From: a virus | DNA: 34,484 nucleotides | Direction: 5' to 3' (one strand) | IMG/VR virus record: IMGVR_UViG_3300034356_001095 | Location: 1-34,484 of that record | Shown: in pieces, positions 1 to 13,359 of the stretch | Numbering within the stretch: the stretch's first letter is position 1 | How the letters are laid out: every line of letters starts with the position of its first letter | Notes under the pieces: generated by a model | Databases searched by the model: none | The model's input: only the letters and a program-made list of their open reading frames with translations | What the model was told of the DNA's origin: nothing | Made by a program: the position numbers and the translations under genes

Positions 1-125
1 GTGCCGTTGGGCTGGGCTGGGCAGGGCAGGGCGTGCCGATGGGCAGGGCAGGGCAGGGCAGGGCGTGCCGATGGGCAGGGCAGGGCAGGGCAGGGCGTGC
101 CGATGGGCAGGGCAGGGCAGGGCCT
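1..125. repeat. 32-bp G-rich tandem repeat at the window edge
   Basis: GTGCCG occurs at 1, 33, 65 and 97, an exact 32-bp period. Each unit continues with TGGGC and several GGGCA pentamers. The first unit carries T variants (GGGCTGGGC); the last runs into GGGCCTTTCTCC. Runs such as GGGCAGGGCAGGGCAGGG fit the canonical G-quadruplex pattern on the plus strand. The window starts inside the array, so its true length is unknown and it may mark an assembly break. The open frame through it is only repeat read as Gly/Arg/Ala and is not taken as a gene. Confidence 0.9.
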
Positions 126-297
126 TTCTCCCTTCCATTTAATCACCTATTCGTGAAATACTCTTCTATTCTTGTTCTATTCCATTCTATTCCCAATTCT
201 ATTCCAATCTATTCACGATTCTATTTTTTTGTATTCTGAATTGGATTATGGAAAATATGGAGAATATGAAAATTATAGTCGGATTTTCCGAACCTAC

Positions 298-830
298 CAT
301 TCCGAACATTATTTTTTATTCAGAGCGCCCCATTCCGAACATTATAATCATTCGCAAGTTCCATAAGTTCCATAAGTTCAACAATTATCAGCAATTCCCA
401 TAATCTCCATAAGTTCTATAATTACTATAATTTCCATAAATTCCATAAATGCCATATTTCCAGAACCTACCATTCCGAACATAGATCCGCTTCCCGAACC
501 TGCCATTCCGAACATTATTCTCATTCCAATTTCGGGCCATTCCGAACATGACCCCCGCCCTCTATTCTAAGCGTCCGGCAACATACCCCCGCCCTCCAGT
601 TTGAAAATCAAATACAAGGGACACCCCCAGTGACTCATAGAATTGGCGGAGCTTGATTTGCTAATCGCCGGGACTACCATTCCGAACATAGATGGTCAGC
701 GGAATTGAACCACTGGCAACCACACCCCCGCCCTCTCATGGAATCCTTGGCAATGCACCCCCGCCCACCTATGGTAAAAATCATTGCATACCCCCGCCCC
801 CATTTTAAAAAGTCGGGACATTCCGAACAT
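298..830 (+). repeat. Seven copies of the 12-mer CATTCCGAACAT (iteron-like)
   Basis: Exact copies start at 298, 331, 471, 504, 538, 678 and 819, all in the same orientation. Distances between starts are 33, 140, 33, 34, 140 and 141 bp, so only two spacing classes occur: about three helical turns and about 140 bp. The DNA between copies is not conserved. Same-direction, regularly spaced 12-mers resemble iterons bound by a replication initiator, but no initiator gene is recognised here. Confidence 0.85.
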
Positions 831-962: not shown

Positions 963-1718
963 TTAAAATGGTGGCGGCACAAAAATTCCCTTTGGCCATT
1001 TGGCATAGAATGCGGCGGAGTCCGCTTGGAACACCGGGCTTGCCATGTATGCATCCCAGTCGCCAGTCTGACCCCCGCCCCCAATGTGATCGACCGAGAC
1101 ATTAGGGGTGATCCCCCAAAAATATCCATTCTTGAGCATTGTGTTGAGGATGTCATTATCACCGAACCACCACATACACTCCTCGGGAAATCGATACCCA
1201 TCGGCGAACCATTCACCCTTGACCATGAAAGCGAACCCAGGAACGCCACCCTTGCCATCATACTGATTGGCACAGATTCGGTCGTAGATGGTGGTGCAAG
1301 GAATCACTCGCCCATCGTAGTTCGGCGAGATCGCCATCAACCGATGTCCTGACCTAAGTGCCGTCGCCAATGTCCGAATGAAGTCATCGCCGAGGATCAG
1401 ATCATTATTAAGGAAGGTGATGTTGCAGGCTGACCCCTTCTCTAAAGCAATCTCCACTCCCATATTCCACATTCGATGTATCCCCGCCCCTTCCGCGTTA
1501 ATCACTCGGGCGATTGACTGCTCCTCCAAATATTTTTTGGTCTCCTCGCCACTACCATTGTCCAGCACGATGATACCATCGTAGCCACCCTGCCGATCCA
1601 ATTGGTTCAGCAGATTCTCGGTCATCTCCTTCTGATCCTTCACAGGAATCACCACATAATTCCTGATTCTTAGCGTTGGCGTCTGAGGTTCGATTACTGC
1701 GTACTCTTTGTTTTTCAT
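963..1718 (-). CDS. GT-A fold glycosyltransferase (family 2-like)
   Basis: The 251-residue protein probably transfers a sugar from a nucleotide sugar to an unknown acceptor, perhaps modified phage DNA or a surface glycan. Seen: an N-terminal beta strand YVVIPVK at about 21-27, the sequence IIVLDNGSG near 49-57, and NND at 104-106, the usual place of the metal-binding DxD-like motif. GGVPGFAFMVKGEW and a FGDND stretch further on match the acceptor-side region of family 2 enzymes. It is the last gene of the array. Its ATG overlaps the stop of the Cys-rich gene upstream as CTATGA. The acceptor cannot be read from sequence. Confidence 0.75.
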   Translation of the reverse strand: MKNKEYAVIEPQTPTLRIRNYVVIPVKDQKEMTENLLNQLDRQGGYDGIIVLDNGSGEETKKYLEEQSIARVINAEGAGIHRMWNMGVEIALEKGSACNITFLNNDLILGDDFIRTLATALRSGHRLMAISPNYDGRVIPCTTIYDRICANQYDGKGGVPGFAFMVKGEWFADGYRFPEECMWWFGDNDILNTMLKNGYFWGITPNVSVDHIGGGGQTGDWDAYMASPVFQADSAAFYAKWPKGIFVPPPF

Positions 1719-1921
1719 AGGTTATTTTTTAAATGTTTGGTTGATCTGATTCCCCACAGGATGCTGTCTTCTTCGATAATTTCGATGTCAAAATCCTCGG
1801 CATTATGTGGGCCAATACAGGAGCATTCTGCATAATGTTCAGCGTGAGTTGGACACCAAGGTTCTTCGCAGCATTCGCATCTTGGCAGTTCGTCCGCGCA
1901 GACAATGCGAATGCGCTCCAC
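1715..1921 (-). CDS. Small Cys-rich protein, probable GTG start
   Basis: A 68-residue reading begins at a GTG (1921-1919) and ends in Leu-stop coupled to the next gene. It holds CECCEEPWCPTHAEHYAECSC, a dense Cys/His cluster that probably binds zinc, then an acidic segment (EDFDIEIIEED). The open frame extends upstream to 2149, but that part lies over the methyltransferase core and looks like shadow sequence. The last 23 bases before the next gene are a repeat also found at 2547-2569. Function unknown. The start is uncertain because no clear ribosome site is visible. Confidence 0.5.
   Translation of the reverse strand: MERIRIVCADELPRCECCEEPWCPTHAEHYAECSCIGPHNAEDFDIEIIEEDSILWGIRSTKHLKNNL
1721..1743. 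repeat. 23-bp junction repeat, copy 1
   Basis: This 23-bp stretch (starting GTTATTTTTTAAATG on the plus strand) is identical to 2547-2569. Both copies sit at the 3' end of a gene directly before the next start codon. They are read in different frames: here as ...TKHLKNNL-stop in the Cys-rich gene and ...QPNI-stop in the methyltransferase frame; in the other copy as ...NQTFKK-stop. Confidence 0.9.
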
Positions 1922-2546: not shown

Positions 2547-2569
2547 GTTATTTTTTAAATGTTTGGTTG
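2547..2569. repeat. 23-bp junction repeat, copy 2
   Basis: Identical to 1721-1743. It forms the last codons and stop of the primase-like gene and lies 2 bp before the ATG of the methyltransferase gene. Identity over 23 bp in two reading frames implies copying of DNA rather than protein-level selection. Confidence 0.9.
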
Positions 2570-6692: not shown

Positions 6693-7096
6693 AGTAGGGA
6701 AAGGATTGCAAATTTGACTGCCTCATCGAAGTTCCAGCAGACCTTCGTTGGAATGCCTGACTGATTCAACTCATCAATGCACTCGACTTGATGCTTACTT
6801 AATTTGCCTCCAGCAGCCTTGAGTTCGATACAGCACACCTTACCCTGGTGCATCACAGTCAAATCGGGATGGCCTCGGCGAATGGTTGACTCCTTGTCAG
6901 TCCTGCTGACCAGAACATAGTAGCCCCGGCGGCGCAGGTCTGTGCAGACTAGGGCATTCAACTCACGCTCTTCACCTGCTTGCCAGCGTTCTTGAGCCAG
7001 CGTCGGTTGCTCAACAACGCTGATTGGTTGATCCAATGCACATTGAAACTTGTTCTTGTATTGATGCTCACGCACCTGTTGCTCTGTCATTTTCAT
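6689..7096 (-). CDS. VRR-NUC family nuclease
   Basis: 135 residues. The C-terminal half has GHPDLTV (75-81), CCIELKAAGG (88-97) and KLSKHQ (98-103): the Asp...Glu-x-Lys...Gln signature of VRR-NUC endonucleases of the restriction-enzyme fold, which in phages cut branched or structured DNA. The N-terminal 35 residues are a separate, poorly conserved lead. Its first codons (MKMTEQQ) are nearly identical in DNA to the start of the gene at 7949-8203, a shared start cassette. It overlaps the stop of the glycosyltransferase upstream. Confidence 0.8.
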   Translation of the reverse strand: MKMTEQQVREHQYKNKFQCALDQPISVVEQPTLAQERWQAGEERELNALVCTDLRRRGYYVLVSRTDKESTIRRGHPDLTVMHQGKVCCIELKAAGGKLSKHQVECIDELNQSGIPTKVCWNFDEAVKFAILSLL

Positions 7097-7959
7097 TTTA
7101 TTTTTACCATTTTCATCCCGTAGTTATTCACTCCTTCAAAAACCTTTGTTCCATCAACCTTAATCAACTTATTTCTTTTAAATCTTGAGTAATCCACATG
7201 ATGATGCCATCGGTTAAACTTCCATACCACCTCGGCAACATCTGGGTGCATTAGCGCAATCATTTGGGATTTTGGCAGTGTTCCTTCCTTAGCATAAAAC
7301 TCTTCTGTGTTTCCGCCGCTCATGGTTTGAGTAGTGGCTTTTTCTTGCAAAAAAGCATTGAACTGCACAGTGCAAAGTCCATCTTTCAGCGCTCTTAAAG
7401 AAAGATCCGTATCTTCGTTATACCTACCACGCCATCGAATCGACAGATCGTTTTTAATTAACAAGCATGAGTAGATGCGCGTGTTGAGAACAAACGCAGG
7501 AATTTGTGTCTTAGCCTTTGCAAAAAAATCATAATTGAATCCCGCAATTGCGATATTGCAGTAACGATCAACAAAATCTTCCGCAACTTTGAATATTGTT
7601 CCAGATGTAACCTTGACCATCAGATTGCGATTAAGTCGCTGAAATGATGCGATATTGTCGTCCATAACCCAATGCCGCGCACTCCCGAGGGCGACAGAGT
7701 GATCCCAGCAAAAGTTCCGCGCCGCCCCTGGGCCTTTGCTCATACCGCCCCCCACATCATCGCAAGTCTCGTAGGACTCTAAGTATTTTTGTGGCAAAAC
7801 AAGCACTTTTTTTGGATCAATAACTGACGCATATCGATCGCGTTCACTAGCCTCTACAACAATATGGTGCGGGACATTGATCTGATCCAATGCCTTGCTT
7901 GTTAGCCGAGTGTCCCATCGCCCCTTAGAGACGATATAAATTGGGTAGCTAGGATTCAT
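7093..7959 (-). CDS. TET-associated-type DNA glycosyltransferase (TAGT-like)
   Basis: 288 residues, starting at ATG 7959; a TTG one codon earlier is weaker. YPIYIVSKGRW (5-15), RLTSKALD, VVEASERDRYA, LPQKYLESYETCDD, GPGAARNFCWDHSV (77-90) and HWVMDDNI (96-103, with the metal-binding DD) match the glycosyltransferase family first found beside phage TET/JBP dioxygenases. Those enzymes put sugars on oxidised 5-methylcytosine in DNA. GRYNEDTDLSLRALK in the second half fits the acceptor/catalytic loop. It sits next to two DNA methyltransferases and a PP-loop ATPase, but no TET-like dioxygenase is visible. Confidence 0.75.
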   Translation of the reverse strand: MNPSYPIYIVSKGRWDTRLTSKALDQINVPHHIVVEASERDRYASVIDPKKVLVLPQKYLESYETCDDVGGGMSKGPGAARNFCWDHSVALGSARHWVMDDNIASFQRLNRNLMVKVTSGTIFKVAEDFVDRYCNIAIAGFNYDFFAKAKTQIPAFVLNTRIYSCLLIKNDLSIRWRGRYNEDTDLSLRALKDGLCTVQFNAFLQEKATTQTMSGGNTEEFYAKEGTLPKSQMIALMHPDVAEVVWKFNRWHHHVDYSRFKRNKLIKVDGTKVFEGVNNYGMKMVKIK

Positions 7960-8203
7960 CAACGTACCTTTTGTCGGAAGCGATTCTGTTGTCCATTTTA
8001 GGAAACCAGCAACTCGGCTGCTTGGGCGTGATTCGCTGATTTAGTAGCTTTGAAAATTCCTCAACATCGGCGTCGTTTCTAAAATGAATAACTATTTTTC
8101 TGTGGGATGTTAAGTCTTCTTGCACAAATTCTGGCATTCCTTGCCATTCAAGTTGCCAATTACTAGGCACGTCAAAAAGCGACTGTTGCTCGGTCATTTT
8201 CAT
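7949..8203 (-). CDS. Conserved phage protein of the DNA-modification block
   Basis: 84 residues starting MKMTEQQSLFDVP. Its core (EWQGMPEFVQEDL...IVIHFRNDADVEEFSKLLNQRITPKQPSCWFP) is a pattern I recognise from small phage proteins of unknown function that sit before DNA-modifying enzymes. The start overlaps the stop of the methyltransferase (TTATGA), and its stop overlaps the glycosyltransferase start, so all three are co-translated. The first 20 bases almost repeat the start of the VRR-NUC gene. It may bind or present DNA to the enzymes; that is inference. Confidence 0.6.
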   Translation of the reverse strand: MKMTEQQSLFDVPSNWQLEWQGMPEFVQEDLTSHRKIVIHFRNDADVEEFSKLLNQRITPKQPSCWFPKMDNRIASDKRYVDES

Positions 8204-8217
8204 AAGGCAAGGAGTTC
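8200..8217. repeat. 18-bp junction repeat, copy 1
   Basis: Minus-strand GAACTCCTTGCCTTATGA encodes the last four residues and stop of the methyltransferase (ELLAL-stop) and contains the ATG of the next gene. The same 18 bp occur at 9475-9492. Confidence 0.85.
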
Positions 8218-8683: not shown

Positions 8684-9478
8684 TTAGCCGTCGTAGCATC
8701 CGCATGGGATTTTGTGCGGGTCTTGCTCATCCAACCATTTGAAAAGCTTCAACTGGTCATCGTCTGCGTTAACAATTTCGCTCCACGGGATTCCAAAATT
8801 CAATCCCCTCACTCGCCCCTTCACTACCATATTGGTTTCCATTGCAATCGCTCGCTTAAAGTACTCTGGATACTCATCTCGCAAGCGCAAAATTTCACTG
8901 CTCTTCATGGCGGGGCAAAAGAAGCACGATGACTTTCCCGGCAATGGCAACCCGTGTCGCTTGATCGTCTCAACGCATTCTTTGCGAGTCCACATCCATT
9001 CAATTAATGGATACCAGTAATTCTCTTTTTTCCCTTTTGCTAGAGATGCTTCAGTCATGCTAATCTTTCTGTGTCCCTCGGCAGCATCATAACCAATTGC
9101 TTTAATGATTTCGGATGTTCCATTATCCTTCATCCATTGCCGGGCCAACTTGTTTTGAGGTTCAACCTTGTGCTTCATTGAGCAAGATTTGAATCCATAA
9201 GCAAGGGATGGAAGTAGTTTCTTCCTGAGAGAAGAATCCTCCAATGTCTCGTACTCGCCTTTGTAAGTAGCGTACACTTTTTTAATCTCAATTCCCCACC
9301 ACTCTTGGGTTTTCTTGCTCATTAATTCAATGTGGGCGTAAGTTGTTGGAAGCTCGCCACCAGTGTCAGCGAACGCAATTAAGTCTGGGCGGATTCCTCG
9401 GTCGAGGAATCCGCATAGCATAGCAACTGAGTTTGTGCCGCCGCCGTAGGCAACAACGAGTGGTTTATCAATGATCAT
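8684..9478 (-). CDS. PAPS-reductase/DndC-like PP-loop ATPase
   Basis: 264 residues. VVAYGGGTNSVAML (8-21) is a PP-loop that binds ATP and forms an adenylated intermediate. ADTGGELPTTYAHI follows as in PAPS reductase-like enzymes. Cysteines at 99 (SCSMKHKVEPQNK) and at 185 and 188 (SCFFCPAM), plus a C-terminal CGCYDG, could hold a thiol relay or metal cluster as in DndC-type proteins. The true substrate is unknown; sulfur or other nucleotide chemistry linked to the neighbouring DNA methyltransferase and glycosyltransferase is plausible. No dndB, dndD or dndE partners are seen. Confidence 0.75.
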   Translation of the reverse strand: MIIDKPLVVAYGGGTNSVAMLCGFLDRGIRPDLIAFADTGGELPTTYAHIELMSKKTQEWWGIEIKKVYATYKGEYETLEDSSLRKKLLPSLAYGFKSCSMKHKVEPQNKLARQWMKDNGTSEIIKAIGYDAAEGHRKISMTEASLAKGKKENYWYPLIEWMWTRKECVETIKRHGLPLPGKSSCFFCPAMKSSEILRLRDEYPEYFKRAIAMETNMVVKGRVRGLNFGIPWSEIVNADDDQLKLFKWLDEQDPHKIPCGCYDG

Positions 9479-9492
9479 AAGGCAAGGAGTTC
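9475..9492. repeat. 18-bp junction repeat, copy 2, with orphan gene tail
   Basis: Identical to 8200-8217. It carries the ATG of the PP-loop ATPase. In frame it reads IAELLAL-stop but is preceded by a stop codon, so it looks like the leftover tail of a gene whose body is gone. The interval from there to 9535 holds no other feature. Confidence 0.8.
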
Positions 9493-9535: not shown

Positions 9536-9829
9536 TTATTTTCCCCACCTTGGTAGCCGGACATTGTAAGTCTCTCCAACTGACTGGGTTGCAGTATTCC
9601 CACGATGCCCCTGGGACTCGCAGTCTCGGCATCGTTGGCAAATCTTCACCGAGGCGTTTCCTGCCGAGAATGTAGTGGCAAGGTTTCCGCACTCGCATCG
9701 ATGCTCGTTTTTCTCCCGTACAATGTTGCGCTTCCTCTCTGCGCGAACTACTGGCAATCCTCGGCAATGGAACATCCTGCCAAGGTTTGCCCCGCTCCAG
9801 ACTTGACCACACATCTCACAGGTTGCCAT
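9536..9829 (-). CDS. Two-finger zinc-ribbon protein, paralogue 2
   Basis: 97 residues. An N-terminal CEMCGQVW finger half is followed by RCECGNLATTFSAGNASVKICQRC, the same Cys-x-Cys ... Cys-x2-Cys ribbon as at 6277-6504 and 10426-10623, and the C-terminus ends TYNVRLP like its paralogues. The extra N-terminal finger makes it the longest of the three. It overlaps the preceding gene by 14 bp. A 57-bp gap with a repeat remnant separates it from the PP-loop ATPase. Role unknown. Confidence 0.65.
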   Translation of the reverse strand: MATCEMCGQVWSGANLGRMFHCRGLPVVRAERKRNIVREKNEHRCECGNLATTFSAGNASVKICQRCRDCESQGHRGNTATQSVGETYNVRLPRWGK

Positions 9830-10429: not shown

Positions 10430-10623
10430 TTTGTTGGTAGATGAATTCGGTAGCAGTCAACTGCTCCAGCAACGCCACTTCGGGTCTTGCTGTCCATCAG
10501 TTGGTTGATGAGACTTTTTTCAATTCTGGCACATCTGTCACAGACTGCACCAAAATTCTTTTTTATTGTTGCGGGGTTGCTACACGCACAGAACTTGTTT
10601 GTGCTGTTGGAGTTAGATTTCAT
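10426..10623 (-). CDS. Zinc-ribbon protein, paralogue 3
   Basis: 65 residues. The true start is ATG 10623, which overlaps the stop of the 29-residue mini-ORF upstream. A longer frame to 10728 would read through that mini-ORF in another frame and is discarded. FCACSNPATIKKNFGAVCDRC holds the ribbon shared with 6277-6504 and 9536-9829, and the end YRIHLP matches their Tyr-x-Val-x-Leu-Pro tail. A central helix (IEKSLINQLMDSKTR) is specific to this copy. Confidence 0.6.
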   Translation of the reverse strand: MKSNSNSTNKFCACSNPATIKKNFGAVCDRCARIEKSLINQLMDSKTRSGVAGAVDCYRIHLPTK

Positions 10624-10709
10624 ACTACAAATTCTCTGGCAGATGCCCCGTCGATGTCTGTCCACCCGCACGCTCTCGCGATGGCGATGCGTTGTTGTTC
10701 TGGACTCAT
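10620..10709 (-). CDS. 29-residue mini-ORF, truncated copy of the 11342-11716 protein
   Basis: It begins MSPEQQRIAIARACGW, against MSPEQQRIAIAKACGW at the start of the protein at 11342-11716, then diverges and stops at residue 29. The ATG overlaps the stop of the mini-ORF upstream (QPQ-stop as ATGA), and its own stop overlaps the ATG of the zinc-ribbon gene. It is either a decayed paralogue or a relay peptide that keeps translation coupled across the cassette. It is too short to call a function. Confidence 0.5.
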   Translation of the reverse strand: MSPEQQRIAIARACGWTDIDGASAREFVV

Positions 10710-10783
10710 TGTGGTTGGGTATGTTCACGAAACAGATTTCGTGAACATATTGGCAGGGTTTGGAAGAGGTCTTTGCGTGTCAT
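10706..10783 (-). CDS. 25-residue mini-ORF between two seam repeats
   Basis: It starts MTRKDLFQTLP, close to the MTRDELDEIL and MTRNELYELL starts of the two genes upstream, and ends in TQPQ-stop exactly as they do. Both ends lie in CAACCACAATGA seams, so it is a complete but nearly empty member of the cassette chain. Most of its body is the stem-loop at 10720-10749. It is probably a deletion derivative whose reading frame stayed open. Confidence 0.5.
   Translation of the reverse strand: MTRKDLFQTLPICSRNLFREHTQPQ
10720..10749. repeat. Perfect 13-bp stem-loop, copy 1 of a duplicated palindrome
   Basis: TATGTTCACGAAA (10720-10732), a CAGA loop, then TTTCGTGAACATA (10737-10749). The core ACGAAACAGATTTCGTGA (10727-10744) recurs at 11995-12012, where GGCAGG follows at a similar distance. 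It lies inside the 25-residue mini-ORF. On the mRNA it would fold stably just before a start codon, so it may act on coupling, or it may be a small mobile palindrome. Confidence 0.85.
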
Positions 10784-11046
10784 TGTGGTTGGGTTGGGGT
10801 TGGCGGCAATTTATTCTCAGTTAGTTGCAAGTCCGCTTGCTTGAGCCAATCCTTGTATAACTCAGTTAATTGCAATTCCGCTTGCTTGAGCCAATCCTCG
10901 TATAACAAGGCTTTCTCTGCAAATGACTGGATCTTCTCTGTCTCTCCGTCGAAGACTTTGCCCCAGATCAACTCCGCCGCCTCCTCTGGAAAGATTTCCA
11001 CCGAGTAGCATTGGTGGAGGATTTCGTCTAATTCGTCGCGTGTCAT
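10780..11046 (-). CDS. Seam-cassette protein with 15-residue tandem repeat
   Basis: 88 residues from ATG 11046; the longer frame to 11127 overlaps the neighbour and is not used. MTRDELDEILHQCY...IWGKVFDGETEKIQSFAEKA parallels MTRNELYELLKKCG...IWGQPFEGETEKIKPDAEKS in the next gene upstream, so the two are tandem paralogues. The second half repeats L-Y-x-DWLKQA-x-LQLTE twice (45-bp direct repeat). It ends PTPTQPQ-stop, overlapping the next ATG. Function unknown; helical and probably cytoplasmic. Confidence 0.6.
   Translation of the reverse strand: MTRDELDEILHQCYSVEIFPEEAAELIWGKVFDGETEKIQSFAEKALLYEDWLKQAELQLTELYKDWLKQADLQLTENKLPPTPTQPQ
10816..10905. repeat. 45-bp tandem duplication inside a gene
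   Basis: 10816-10860 and 10861-10905 are near identical, both starting CTCAGTTA and ending GTATAA. In frame they add one extra 15-residue unit to the encoded protein. The few differences are single bases, so the duplication looks recent. Confidence 0.85.
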
Positions 11047-11345
11047 TGTGGTTGGGTTGGAGTTGGTGTGGGCAGAAACTCTTCCAAACAGGCGATGATG
11101 TTTTTCGATCCGCAATCTCCATCCCACCCCCAGTTCACTCGCTCAAATTGTTCCAGTGCCGTACGAATAGCCATATAAGCCAGTTCAAGTTTTCGCTCGG
11201 CAGTTGACGACGATTTCTCCGCATCTGGCTTAATTTTCTCCGTCTCGCCTTCAAAGGGTTGCCCCCAAATTTTGTCAAGAGTGTGTATAGGAGTAGTTTC
11301 CCATCCACACTTTTTAAGCAGTTCGTAGAGTTCGTTGCGTGTCAT
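11043..11345 (-). CDS. Seam-cassette protein, paralogue of 10780-11046
   Basis: 100 residues. The N-terminal 45 residues align with the downstream neighbour (MTR-x-EL...IWG-x-x-F-x-GETEKI). The C-terminal half differs: helical ERKLELAYMAIRTALEQFERV, then GWDGDCGSKNIIACLEEFLP. It ends PTPTQPQ-stop in the same seam. Shared head and tail with a different middle is what recombination at repeated junctions would give. No domain recognised. Confidence 0.6.
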   Translation of the reverse strand: MTRNELYELLKKCGWETTPIHTLDKIWGQPFEGETEKIKPDAEKSSSTAERKLELAYMAIRTALEQFERVNWGWDGDCGSKNIIACLEEFLPTPTPTQPQ

Positions 11346-11716
11346 TGTGGTTGGGTTGGGTTTTCTTGCCAGAGTCCGAGAGTGCGGAGGAAAGCCTCTG
11401 CTCGTTGGTCGGCGGTGGCGTGTACAAGGCTAAAAACTTCCAGTTGAATATCCTTTTTTTTCTCAGAATAATGAATGTCCGCAAACGGATGCAGGTGGTT
11501 AATCCAAAAACCAAACCTTTCCTTTTGCCCTTCATCCAAAAGTTCTTCCATTTCGTGGCAGGCGTTGAGGTCGCCGAGGTAATCGGGCAATTCCCATGAA
11601 TTGTATGGAGTATTCGGAGGTTGTCCGTATTGGATAGCCCCCTCGTGGGATGCGCTGTTAAAATTCTTCCATCCGCACGCTTTCGCGATGGCGATTCGTT
11701 GTTGTTCTGGACTCAT
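11342..11716 (-). CDS. Head of the seam-cassette chain, unknown function
   Basis: 124 residues. MSPEQQRIAIAKACGWKN is shared with the truncated mini-ORF at 10620-10709. The body (GDLNACHEMEELLDEGQKERFGFWINHL, then KDIQLEVFSLVHATADQRAEAFLRTLGLW) resembles phage proteins of the 'Phage ABA sandwich' type, in which a short N-terminal GW segment precedes a helical body; this match is tentative. It ends ENPTQPQ-stop at the first seam. It lies 12 bp after the DUF3310-Sel1 gene, without overlap. Confidence 0.55.
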   Translation of the reverse strand: MSPEQQRIAIAKACGWKNFNSASHEGAIQYGQPPNTPYNSWELPDYLGDLNACHEMEELLDEGQKERFGFWINHLHPFADIHYSEKKKDIQLEVFSLVHATADQRAEAFLRTLGLWQENPTQPQ

Positions 11717-11728
11717 TGTGTCTGATTG

Positions 11729-12481
11729 TTAGCTGGTTGCGTGAAAGCTCTTGTCGAGCCAATAGTTTGCCAGCTTCTCATCCTTAGCAACGCCTTCGCC
11801 GTTGCGATAAGCCTTGACCAGACTCAGTTGAGCATCGTAGTTACCTTGCTCCGCCGCCTTCTGCCACCACTTTACCGCAGCCTCGTAGTCCTGTGGCATG
11901 CCGTCGCCATAAAAGCACATACGTCCCATCTGGTATTGCCGACCCGCATCGCCAGCCTGCGCATATGCCAGAATGTTGCCAGTCAGGTTTGGTGACGAAA
12001 CAGATTTCGTGACCAGATCGGCAGGTTTTTGCTTATTTGCCTTGCGATTTTGTTCCGCAAGTTCCCACAATCGCTCTGCCTCCTCTTTGTTTTTCTCTAC
12101 CCCTCGGCCAAACAAATAGGCGTTGCCAAGAATCCATTGTGCCTCTGCATCTCCCTCCATCGCCTTCTTTTTTACATAGCCCAAATGATGGTCGGGAGCT
12201 ACATCCGTCTGGGGAACTTCCGCAGGTTTCTCTGCTCGCACAATGCATTGCCTTTCCAGTTCCATCTCGTCAATGCGCTTATCGATCTCGCGCTGAATGT
12301 ACCAGATTGCTTTGCGGAGGTCATCGTTGACATCCTCCCCAGTTTTTTGCCCATCTCGCCAGATGTATTTAATCGCATTTCCCAAGCAAAATCCCATATA
12401 TTGGGCCACTTCGATGCATTCGATTCCGCTAGGGTGGCCTGTGTAATGTAATGGGTGGTCAATTCTGTCGTTATTTTTCAT
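11729..12481 (-). CDS. DUF3310 domain fused to Sel1-like repeats
   Basis: 250 residues. Residues 5-70 (DRIDHPLHYTGHPSGIECIE...LGNAIKYIWRDGQKTGEDVNDDLRKAIWYI) form a DUF3310 domain, a short phage domain of unknown, possibly nucleotide-related, role. After a linker come Sel1-like helical repeats (about 104-145 and 165-245: GDAEAQWILGNAYLFGRGVEKN, GDAGRQYQMGRMCFYGDGMPQD, GNYDAQLSLVKAYRNGEGV), which usually serve protein-protein contacts. The linker between repeats is encoded by the second copy of the 18-nt palindrome. Upstream lies a 63-bp gap to the next gene. Confidence 0.75.
   Translation of the reverse strand: MKNNDRIDHPLHYTGHPSGIECIEVAQYMGFCLGNAIKYIWRDGQKTGEDVNDDLRKAIWYIQREIDKRIDEMELERQCIVRAEKPAEVPQTDVAPDHHLGYVKKKAMEGDAEAQWILGNAYLFGRGVEKNKEEAERLWELAEQNRKANKQKPADLVTKSVSSPNLTGNILAYAQAGDAGRQYQMGRMCFYGDGMPQDYEAAVKWWQKAAEQGNYDAQLSLVKAYRNGEGVAKDEKLANYWLDKSFHATS
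11991..12014. repeat. Stem-loop, copy 2 of the duplicated palindrome
   Basis: GGTGACGAAA, loop CAGA, TTTCGTGACC: a 10-bp stem with one G-G mismatch. The core 18 nt (11995-12012) equal those at 10727-10744. Here it is translated as part of a linker (ADLVTKSVSSPN) between Sel1 repeats, a position that tolerates insertion. Confidence 0.8.
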
Positions 12482-12544: not shown

Positions 12545-12799
12545 TTACCGAGTCTCGTCGGTCTTGTGAATCTTCGCCTGACGAGCGTAATACGCTTTCT
12601 GATAAGCCTCGCGTTCAGCGTTGCTCGGTGGATTAATTCCCTCTCGCAACAGATTGATGCAATTTTTCTCCCATCGGACAAAGCGAATGCATTCCGGCGA
12701 GATGTCAGAGAACTCCTGACTGCCATCTGGCAAAGTGTTTCTCACCCTCCAGCGTTCCCATGCCGTGTCCTCATCCTTAGCGTGTTGTGATTTTTCCAT
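12545..12799 (-). CDS. Hypothetical 84-residue protein
   Basis: Not recognised. It is hydrophilic and helical, with WERWRVRNTLPDGSQEFSDI and a basic Arg/Ala/Tyr-rich C-terminus (NAEREAYQKAYYARQAKIHKT). No Cys cluster, signal or membrane segment. Its ATG overlaps the stop of the ERF gene (TAATG), so it is co-translated with a recombination protein and may help it. The following 63 bp (12482-12544) contain no gene; TATAAC near the middle could be a -10 element, but no good -35 is seen. Confidence 0.5.
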   Translation of the reverse strand: MEKSQHAKDEDTAWERWRVRNTLPDGSQEFSDISPECIRFVRWEKNCINLLREGINPPSNAEREAYQKAYYARQAKIHKTDETR

Positions 12800-13359
12800 T
12801 AGAATGGGATCTCGTCGTTGTCGATTTCCATGTTGCGAAGGTCTTGCCTCGTCTGCACCACCTTCGATGCTGCCACCTTCGCGTTGTGGTCATTAATCCA
12901 CTTGTCCTGCTGCTCTTCAGATGGCCCTTCCTTGCTATTAGTCGCCGGGCGATTGACTGCCTGTGCTGGTCTGCCCATCGCACCTTCGCCATCGTCATCC
13001 TCGGGAGCGATACCGAGGATGCTCGCCAATGCTCCCCGGCGAGCGTAGGTTGTGGCGCTCATAATTCCTTGTGGATCGTCCTTGAGCGGCGTCACATAGA
13101 AGATGCCACTCACCCATTCGCCCGAGGAATGAGTAAGGACGGTTTCGACAAAGTGACCTTGAGCATCACGCCCTGGAAGCTGAATGACTGCCAGTCCATT
13201 ATTCGTGAGTGGGAGGCGAGCAGCTTCCCAAACTGAGGCAAGATCAGCATACTTGCTCTTGAAAAAGGTGTTGGACACCTCCTTCTTTGCTCCGCCCATC
13301 TGCCCCTGCGCCTTGGAAAGCGCCGCCGCCAACGCCGCGATTGATTCAGACTTGTTCAT
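12799..13359 (-). CDS. erf: ERF-family single-strand annealing recombinase
   Basis: 186 residues from ATG 13359, which overlaps the previous stop and follows a purine-rich GGAAGGCGGGAG. The N-terminal domain carries NTFFKSKYADLASVWEAARLPLTNNGLAVIQ, the signature of phage ERF proteins that anneal complementary single strands, and SATTYARRGALASILGI further on. An acidic, Gln/Lys-rich tail follows and the protein ends DNDEIPF, like the C-terminal tip of bacterial single-strand DNA-binding protein. It would serve recombination-dependent replication with the helicase and primase. Confidence 0.85.
   Translation of the reverse strand: MNKSESIAALAAALSKAQGQMGGAKKEVSNTFFKSKYADLASVWEAARLPLTNNGLAVIQLPGRDAQGHFVETVLTHSSGEWVSGIFYVTPLKDDPQGIMSATTYARRGALASILGIAPEDDDGEGAMGRPAQAVNRPATNSKEGPSEEQQDKWINDHNAKVAASKVVQTRQDLRNMEIDNDEIPF

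Follow-up and report, generated by a model that had tools for sequence, protein, structure and literature searches.

Why should a run of very small phage genes be joined, at one junction after another, by the same short stretch of DNA? The window analysed here, a 34,484-base IMG/VR virus record, has such a run on its minus strand, and a sequence that we call the seam contains the stop codon of each upstream gene together with the start codon of its downstream neighbour. From comparison with related contigs we infer that this array probably consists of accessory genes that have been gained, lost and reordered by recombination between repeats at the gene junctions.

The seam and the genes that it joins

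A preliminary description of this locus reported one 14-mer at four gene junctions. This is confirmed: CCCAACCACAATGA has exactly 4 exact copies in the window, all on the minus strand and all at the four consecutive junctions reported. Similarly, CAACCACAATGA has 4 exact minus-strand copies, at 10706, 10780, 11043 and 11342, and zero elsewhere in the record; by simple arithmetic, 69 kb (both strands included) should contain any one 12-mer about 0.004 times. The length of 19 nt given for the seam holds for two of the copies. The 19-nt form CCCAACCCAACCACAATGA is complete at 11342 and 10780, but 18 nt are found at 11043 and 15 nt (ACCCAACCACAATGA) at 10706, i.e., the long form (18-19 nt) is present at 3 of 4 junctions. 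As was also described, in every copy the upstream frame closes with ...QPQ-stop and the next frame opens with ATG; stop and start form an ATGA overlap of the neighbouring genes. The seam is not palindromic. At the junction into gene A (11716) only CACAATGA is present. The array and its anchors, with G001 and G002 denoting related contigs, are as follows.

11729..12481, minus strand: left anchor, a DUF3310 + Sel1-repeat gene of 250 aa (Pfam PF11753, PF08238)
11342..11716, minus strand: gene A, 124 aa, MSPEQQ...NPTQPQ, no known family
11342..11360, minus strand: first copy of the seam, CCCAACCCAACCACAATGA, joining gene A to gene B
11043..11345, minus strand: gene B, 100 aa, MTRNEL...PTPTQPQ, no known family
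11043..11060, minus strand: second copy of the seam, 18 nt long, joining gene B to gene C
10780..11046, minus strand: gene C, 88 aa, MTRDEL...PTPTQPQ, at the DNA level 96% identical to the cassette in G001 from the seam onwards
10816..10905, minus strand: 45-nt tandem duplication within gene C, single copy in G001
10780..10798, minus strand: third copy of the seam, 19 nt long, joining gene C to the 25-codon ORF
10706..10783, minus strand: 25-codon ORF, in which a cassette head is followed by a segment similar to the hairpin region of the DUF3310/Sel1 gene and then by the seam
10706..10720, minus strand: fourth copy of the seam, 15 nt long and fused to the hairpin, joining the 25-codon ORF to the 29-codon ORF
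10620..10709, minus strand: 29-codon ORF, a truncated second copy of the gene A head (53 nt, 94%)
9536..9829, minus strand: right anchor, the MATCEMCGQ gene, common to G001 (75% identity)

The window thus reads A-B-C-25-29, with three other genes before the MATCEMC anchor. Its ORFs have 124, 100, 88, 25 and 29 codons, in keeping with the two tiny ORFs noted earlier. The common PTQPQ tails of that description are present in the seam-ended genes, in full or as TQPQ, but the 29-codon ORF ends in AREFVV, followed by a further ATGA overlap and no seam. Genes B and C are related in their N-terminal halves. No family was found for the array proteins in Pfam and PHROG, even at relaxed thresholds, and searches of IMG/VR and of GenBank phages with genes A and B gave no relatives. 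The array DNA has no match in plasmids, and comparison of the wider array region with GenBank phages gave no useful relative.

Gene C is probably a working protein gene, because between the window and G001 its core has 6 synonymous changes (35 sites) against 2 non-synonymous ones (151 sites). The G001 relative of gene A (L067 5401-5771) has a single in-frame stop at codon 16 and is otherwise open. Thus not every array member is intact, and some array ORFs may be decaying and not used.

A census of exact direct-repeat pairs in the window (at least 14 nt, more than 60 nt apart, with the repeat-rich contig end excluded) found 22 pairs, and in 10 of them each copy lies on a gene start. Rotating the gene starts around the genome gives on average 0.03 such pairs, and as many as 10 are obtained in 0 of 2000 rotations; a chance origin of the boundary repeats is therefore rejected. 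It should be noted that 7 of the 10 gene-start pairs lie inside the array (6 seam pairs and the head pair of gene A and the 29-codon ORF) and are not independent. The contig end, window positions 1-735, consists of dense tandem repeats with GGGCAGGGC and CCATTCCGAACAT units, and related repeats are found in G001.

Cassettes and breakpoints in related phages

A scan of IMG/VR for the seam gave two records with several copies. G001, of 33.7 kb, has DNA mostly 77-88% identical to the window over much of its length; G002, of 34.5 kb, is more distant, with about 68-83% DNA identity where alignable. A scan with the 17-nt seam additionally gave G028 (L133) and L039/L106. G028 is a fragment of 12,853 bases; its first gene is the same DUF3310/Sel1 gene, followed by the seam. 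Past the seam its genes are unlike those of the window, and L133 is either a different seam-carrying phage or a chimeric contig. L039/L106 have a DUF3310-like gene (assigned by eye) with a 23-nt form of the seam behind it. The seam in array form is carried only by three near-complete contigs (the window, G001 and G002) and the G028 fragment; the other contigs of the same terminase group, most of them partial, have no seam. Among 84,980 bacterial and archaeal genomes the 17-nt seam has 32 single matches, none with a second copy nearby, and these are taken as chance.

Between the same two anchors, DUF3310/Sel1 and MATCEMC, G001 has the order X-C-A-Y, plus one further gene. The DUF3310/Sel1 gene of G002 carries the hairpin and the seam at its own end, and is followed by a short gene, a second seam and a relative of window gene 9816. 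The search of related phages proposed in the preliminary description thus finds different cassettes joined in different order in G001, G002 and G028, and one cassette has different neighbours in different relatives. At the seam junctions, relatives with the same genes and unrelated junction sequences were not found.

Shared and unshared DNA of the window and G001 meet at the seam, both for cassette C and for the tail of gene A. The similarity of cassette C begins and ends at the seams, and the sequences differ beyond them; identity is 96% from the leading seam to the 45-nt unit, compared with 77-88% over most of the genome, and 91% from there to the trailing seam. The 3′ end of gene A is common to both contigs through the seam and three bases past it. 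The 46-nt tail of G001 gene Y, which has the seam without a stop, recurs in G002 after another gene and in another frame, such that the translated sequence is TIATNPNPTTM in G002 and LPLPPIPTQP in G001. In G028 an 11-codon ORF, MTPQPTPTQPQ, consists of 20 nt of the Y head joined to the seam and looks like a cassette collapsed onto its own ends. Some breakpoints are inside genes and outside the seam, as seen in the sub-gene mosaics of the hairpin segment and the Y tail.

The hairpin occurs at two places in the window.

10726..10743, strand not assigned: perfect hairpin core CACGAAATCTGTTTCGTG
11994..12011, strand not assigned: the same hairpin with one arm mismatch, inside the DUF3310/Sel1 gene; the same gene in G001, G002 and G028 has the hairpin too

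The hairpin was considered as a recombination site and dropped, as it adjoins 1 of 4 seams in the window and 1 of 2 in G002. The hairpin sequence GGTCACGAAATCTGTTTCGTSACC is present in six IMG/VR stretches (among its positions are L305 13204, L306 6966 and L307 2624), some of them from unrelated phages, and is possibly a mobile palindrome. A host search with the hairpin, covering 388 genomes from one phylum and 199 from a second, found no match.

Other boundary repeats and seams of other sequence

Three further boundary repeats, S2, S3 and S4, flank accessory genes in the window.

2547..2569, minus strand: S2 copy 1, CAACCAAACATTTAAAAAATAAC
1721..1743, minus strand: S2 copy 2; the S2 copies flank gene 1729-2544
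9475..9492, minus strand: S3 copy 1, GAACTCCTTGCCTTATGA, at a gene junction
8200..8217, minus strand: S3 copy 2, at a gene junction, overlapping S4 copy 1
8183..8203, minus strand: S4 copy 1, ATGAAAATGACCGAGCAACAG
7076..7096, minus strand: S4 copy 2; two genes lie between the S4 copies in the window

At the S2 slot G001 has a different gene and one diverged S2 copy. S4 (ATGAAAATGACHGAGCAACAG) is found at two gene starts. The S4-flanked window gene 7093-7962 is a TET-associated glycosyltransferase (PF20691, E 3e-44), which suggests hypermodified DNA. G001 has no S4-flanked genes and one hybrid S4 copy, whose left flank is that of copy 1 (14 of 14 bases) and whose right flank is that of copy 2 (36 of 40). 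Judged by these flanks, the G001 state is as expected for the product of recombination between direct repeats, or for the starting point of an insertion. It is S4, and not the main seam, for which both a two-copy state and a one-copy state with a hybrid copy are found. G002 has repeat pairs of its own; e.g., the head of the DUF3310/Sel1 gene recurs across an extra gene as a ten-codon ORF, MITDKINHPK (reverse-complement coordinates 6631 and 7470).

In a survey of the retrieved contigs we found a second, unrelated seam, AGGCACAAGARAAATGA, at 20 places in 10 contigs (L190, L202, L238, L219, L229, L217, L216, L200, L252 and L031). These are mostly ERF phages, but 9 of the 10 came from a search for ERF, so their ERF proves nothing. 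Through this sequence one frame ends in ...KAQEK-stop and the following one opens at ATGA, and the small genes joined in this way stand in varying order: MSANTTYY precedes MNDTDIKK in L190, a relative of MSANTTYY precedes MNAIKGL in L202, and cassette MSLWDEAG follows different genes in L217 and L229. At two places AGGCACAAGARAAATGA closely trails another stop and therefore adds no gene tail. It looks like a ribosome-binding region. A third candidate seam, GAGGAGGGCTGACCCATGG, is found in L231; as GAGGAGGGCTGACCCATGGC it is on the minus strand at up to four consecutive junctions, with starts at 963-1839 (reverse-complement coordinates).

Seam arrays might then be recurrent in phages, a generalization that we put forward tentatively. 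A lineage-specific start-region sequence would double as recombination homology, and accessory genes would plug in along one operon; at least two unrelated seams (CCCAACCCAACCACAATGA and AGGCACAAGARAAATGA) and perhaps a third (GAGGAGGGCTGACCCATGGC, L231) would be instances.

Explanations for the seam and comparison with known systems

In the mechanism that we propose, the start region of a gene, which overlaps the preceding stop, would be copied along with the cassettes, and the several seam copies would act as short homologies. An annealing recombinase would pair seam copies during replication, within a genome leading to loss and collapse, and between genomes to gain and exchange. With the joint inside the stop/start overlap, neighbouring genes would stay readable. 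The seam would also be kept as a usable translation start that is unstructured and stop-coupled, with no Shine-Dalgarno sequence. The pairing is probably carried out by the ERF protein of the phage itself, the gene for which is two genes upstream of the array.

12799..13359, minus strand: ERF-type single-strand annealing protein, candidate recombinase (Pfam PF04404, E 6e-19; PHROG 2324)

ERF is present in 3 of 3 near-complete genomes. The ERF of phage D3 recombines diverged DNA efficiently, in assays on 800-bp substrates (PMC3945230); the seam-type repeats, at 15-26 nt, are short for efficient recombination. No site-specific recombinase of the tyrosine or serine type was found, and PF00589 is absent in G000, G001 and G002, contigs that may be incomplete. 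Thus the gene shuffling based on the seam, as first suggested, agrees with the different cassettes and order in relatives and with the breakpoints on the seam, but there is no sign of a dedicated shuffling machine.

The seam could be mainly a translation signal, a stop-coupled unstructured start under selection, comparable to the start-associated sequences of cluster K mycobacteriophages, with the breakpoints as a by-product. This explanation, which is compatible with recombination, is plausible, if somewhat short of an even chance. Seam starts are weakly folded, with a mean of -1.5 versus -4.9 kcal/mol. A Shine-Dalgarno-like core is found at 6 of 53 gene starts in the window, and therefore translation start in the host is probably largely without Shine-Dalgarno. 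Both the second seam and the L231 seam contain Shine-Dalgarno-like bases, and in G001 and G002 the C/A-rich sequence CCAACCCAACCAACACCATGAA forms the leader of another gene. However the seam is missing from about nine other ATGA overlaps of the window, and a translation signal alone leaves the reordering, the hybrid S4 copy and the collapsed cassettes unexplained. A translation role in addition to recombination is likely, because Shine-Dalgarno-like bases are rare and the seam starts are little structured. Tandem duplication and decay of one gene family, with the same ends, diverged middles and the seam as remnant likeness, would account for the related N-terminal halves of B and C, the common head of gene A and the 29-codon ORF, and the gene tail carried by each seam. 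It is nevertheless unlikely, as genes A, X, Y and the G028 gene are unrelated to B/C and yet have the exact seam bases, including synonymous positions, and as the seam joins other genes in G002 and G028 and is also used in another frame.

Conservation of PTQPQ at the protein level, as a peptide with a function of its own such as a tag or a binding motif, is very improbable, although eight tails across four contigs read PTQPQ. The window tails, three full PTQPQ and one TQPQ, have identical codons throughout, a likeness beyond that of the residues, for which phage codon use and independent draws give a probability of about 1e-7; common descent could also yield identical codons, however most of the gene bodies are unrelated. 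Furthermore one G002 gene uses the same DNA in another frame, and the last G001 gene carries the tail without a stop. Protein-level homology of the tails, which the preliminary description had named as an alternative, is thus rejected as the sole explanation, and the tail peptide may be merely the translated start region of the next gene. An assembly or binning artefact at repeats is hardly credible. The contigs are metagenomic and contain repeats, and in G028 the array sits next to genes that do not resemble those of the group, but the repeats, at 26 nt or less, are below usual assembly k-mers, the pattern is common to independent contigs, and the substitutions in cassette C are mostly synonymous.

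The lambdoid boundary-sequence model reportedly goes back to Susskind and Botstein in 1978 and to Clark et al. in 2001 (HK620). In lambdoid phages, short conserved boundary sequences between genes have been proposed as targets of homologous module exchange (PMC3233612). Similar to the window seam, these are short conserved DNA between genes, but they are shared between phages, whereas in the window one sequence is at consecutive junctions of one genome. The longest run common to two O-to-Q junctions is 9 nt in lambda and 11 nt in HK620, versus 19 nt in the window. Small nonessential genes with ATGA overlaps form the "chain of interlinked genes" of lambda ninR (Kroger and Hobom 1982, cited in PMC8022706). 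The consecutive small genes and 4-base overlaps are like those of the window; unlike the window, the chain has no long identical seam at its junctions. In mycobacteriophage Island3 the last 18 residues of a gene and 60 bp repeat those of its neighbour (genes 67/68), and a relative has a hybrid single copy; a segment of LRRHood is flanked by 29-bp repeats (PMC3029335). These have the same anatomy as S4, but are single events without a one-seam array, as opposed to the four junctions of the window.

Cluster K mycobacteriophages have start-associated sequences, a 13-bp repeat just before the starts of many small genes of different families; these sometimes hold the upstream stop, contain AGGAG and have a proposed translation role, and cassette edges were not linked to the repeat (PMC3203893). 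Like the seam they adjoin starts of genes of different families, but the window seam (CCCAACCCAACCACAATGA) does not match their consensus GGGATAGGAGCCC. Integron cassettes are small promoterless genes, interchangeable through a common junction, with a tyrosine integrase in the element. The array resembles them in its small interchangeable units with a shared junction; it differs in that an integrase was not found and the seam is not palindromic.

The statement in the preliminary description that nothing of this kind had been described does not stand, since gene-boundary recombination is an old model with published cases (PMC3029335; for the nin ATGA chain, PMC8022706). For the combination of one seam along an array, several boundary-repeat slots and seams of other sequence in unrelated phages, no describing paper was found in the part of the literature covered. 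There is an old dispute on whether mosaic joints at gene boundaries reflect targeted homology at boundary sequences or random joints followed by selection, and the published cases of targeted boundary homology are few and single. A seam array with differing cassette content makes the targeted-homology model testable on sequence data alone. It also offers a possible explanation of why phage early regions contain tiny ORFs with oddly similar ends: these could be units that can be exchanged or that have collapsed. Compared with these known systems the principle is not new; what appears to be new is the reuse of one seam along a whole array.
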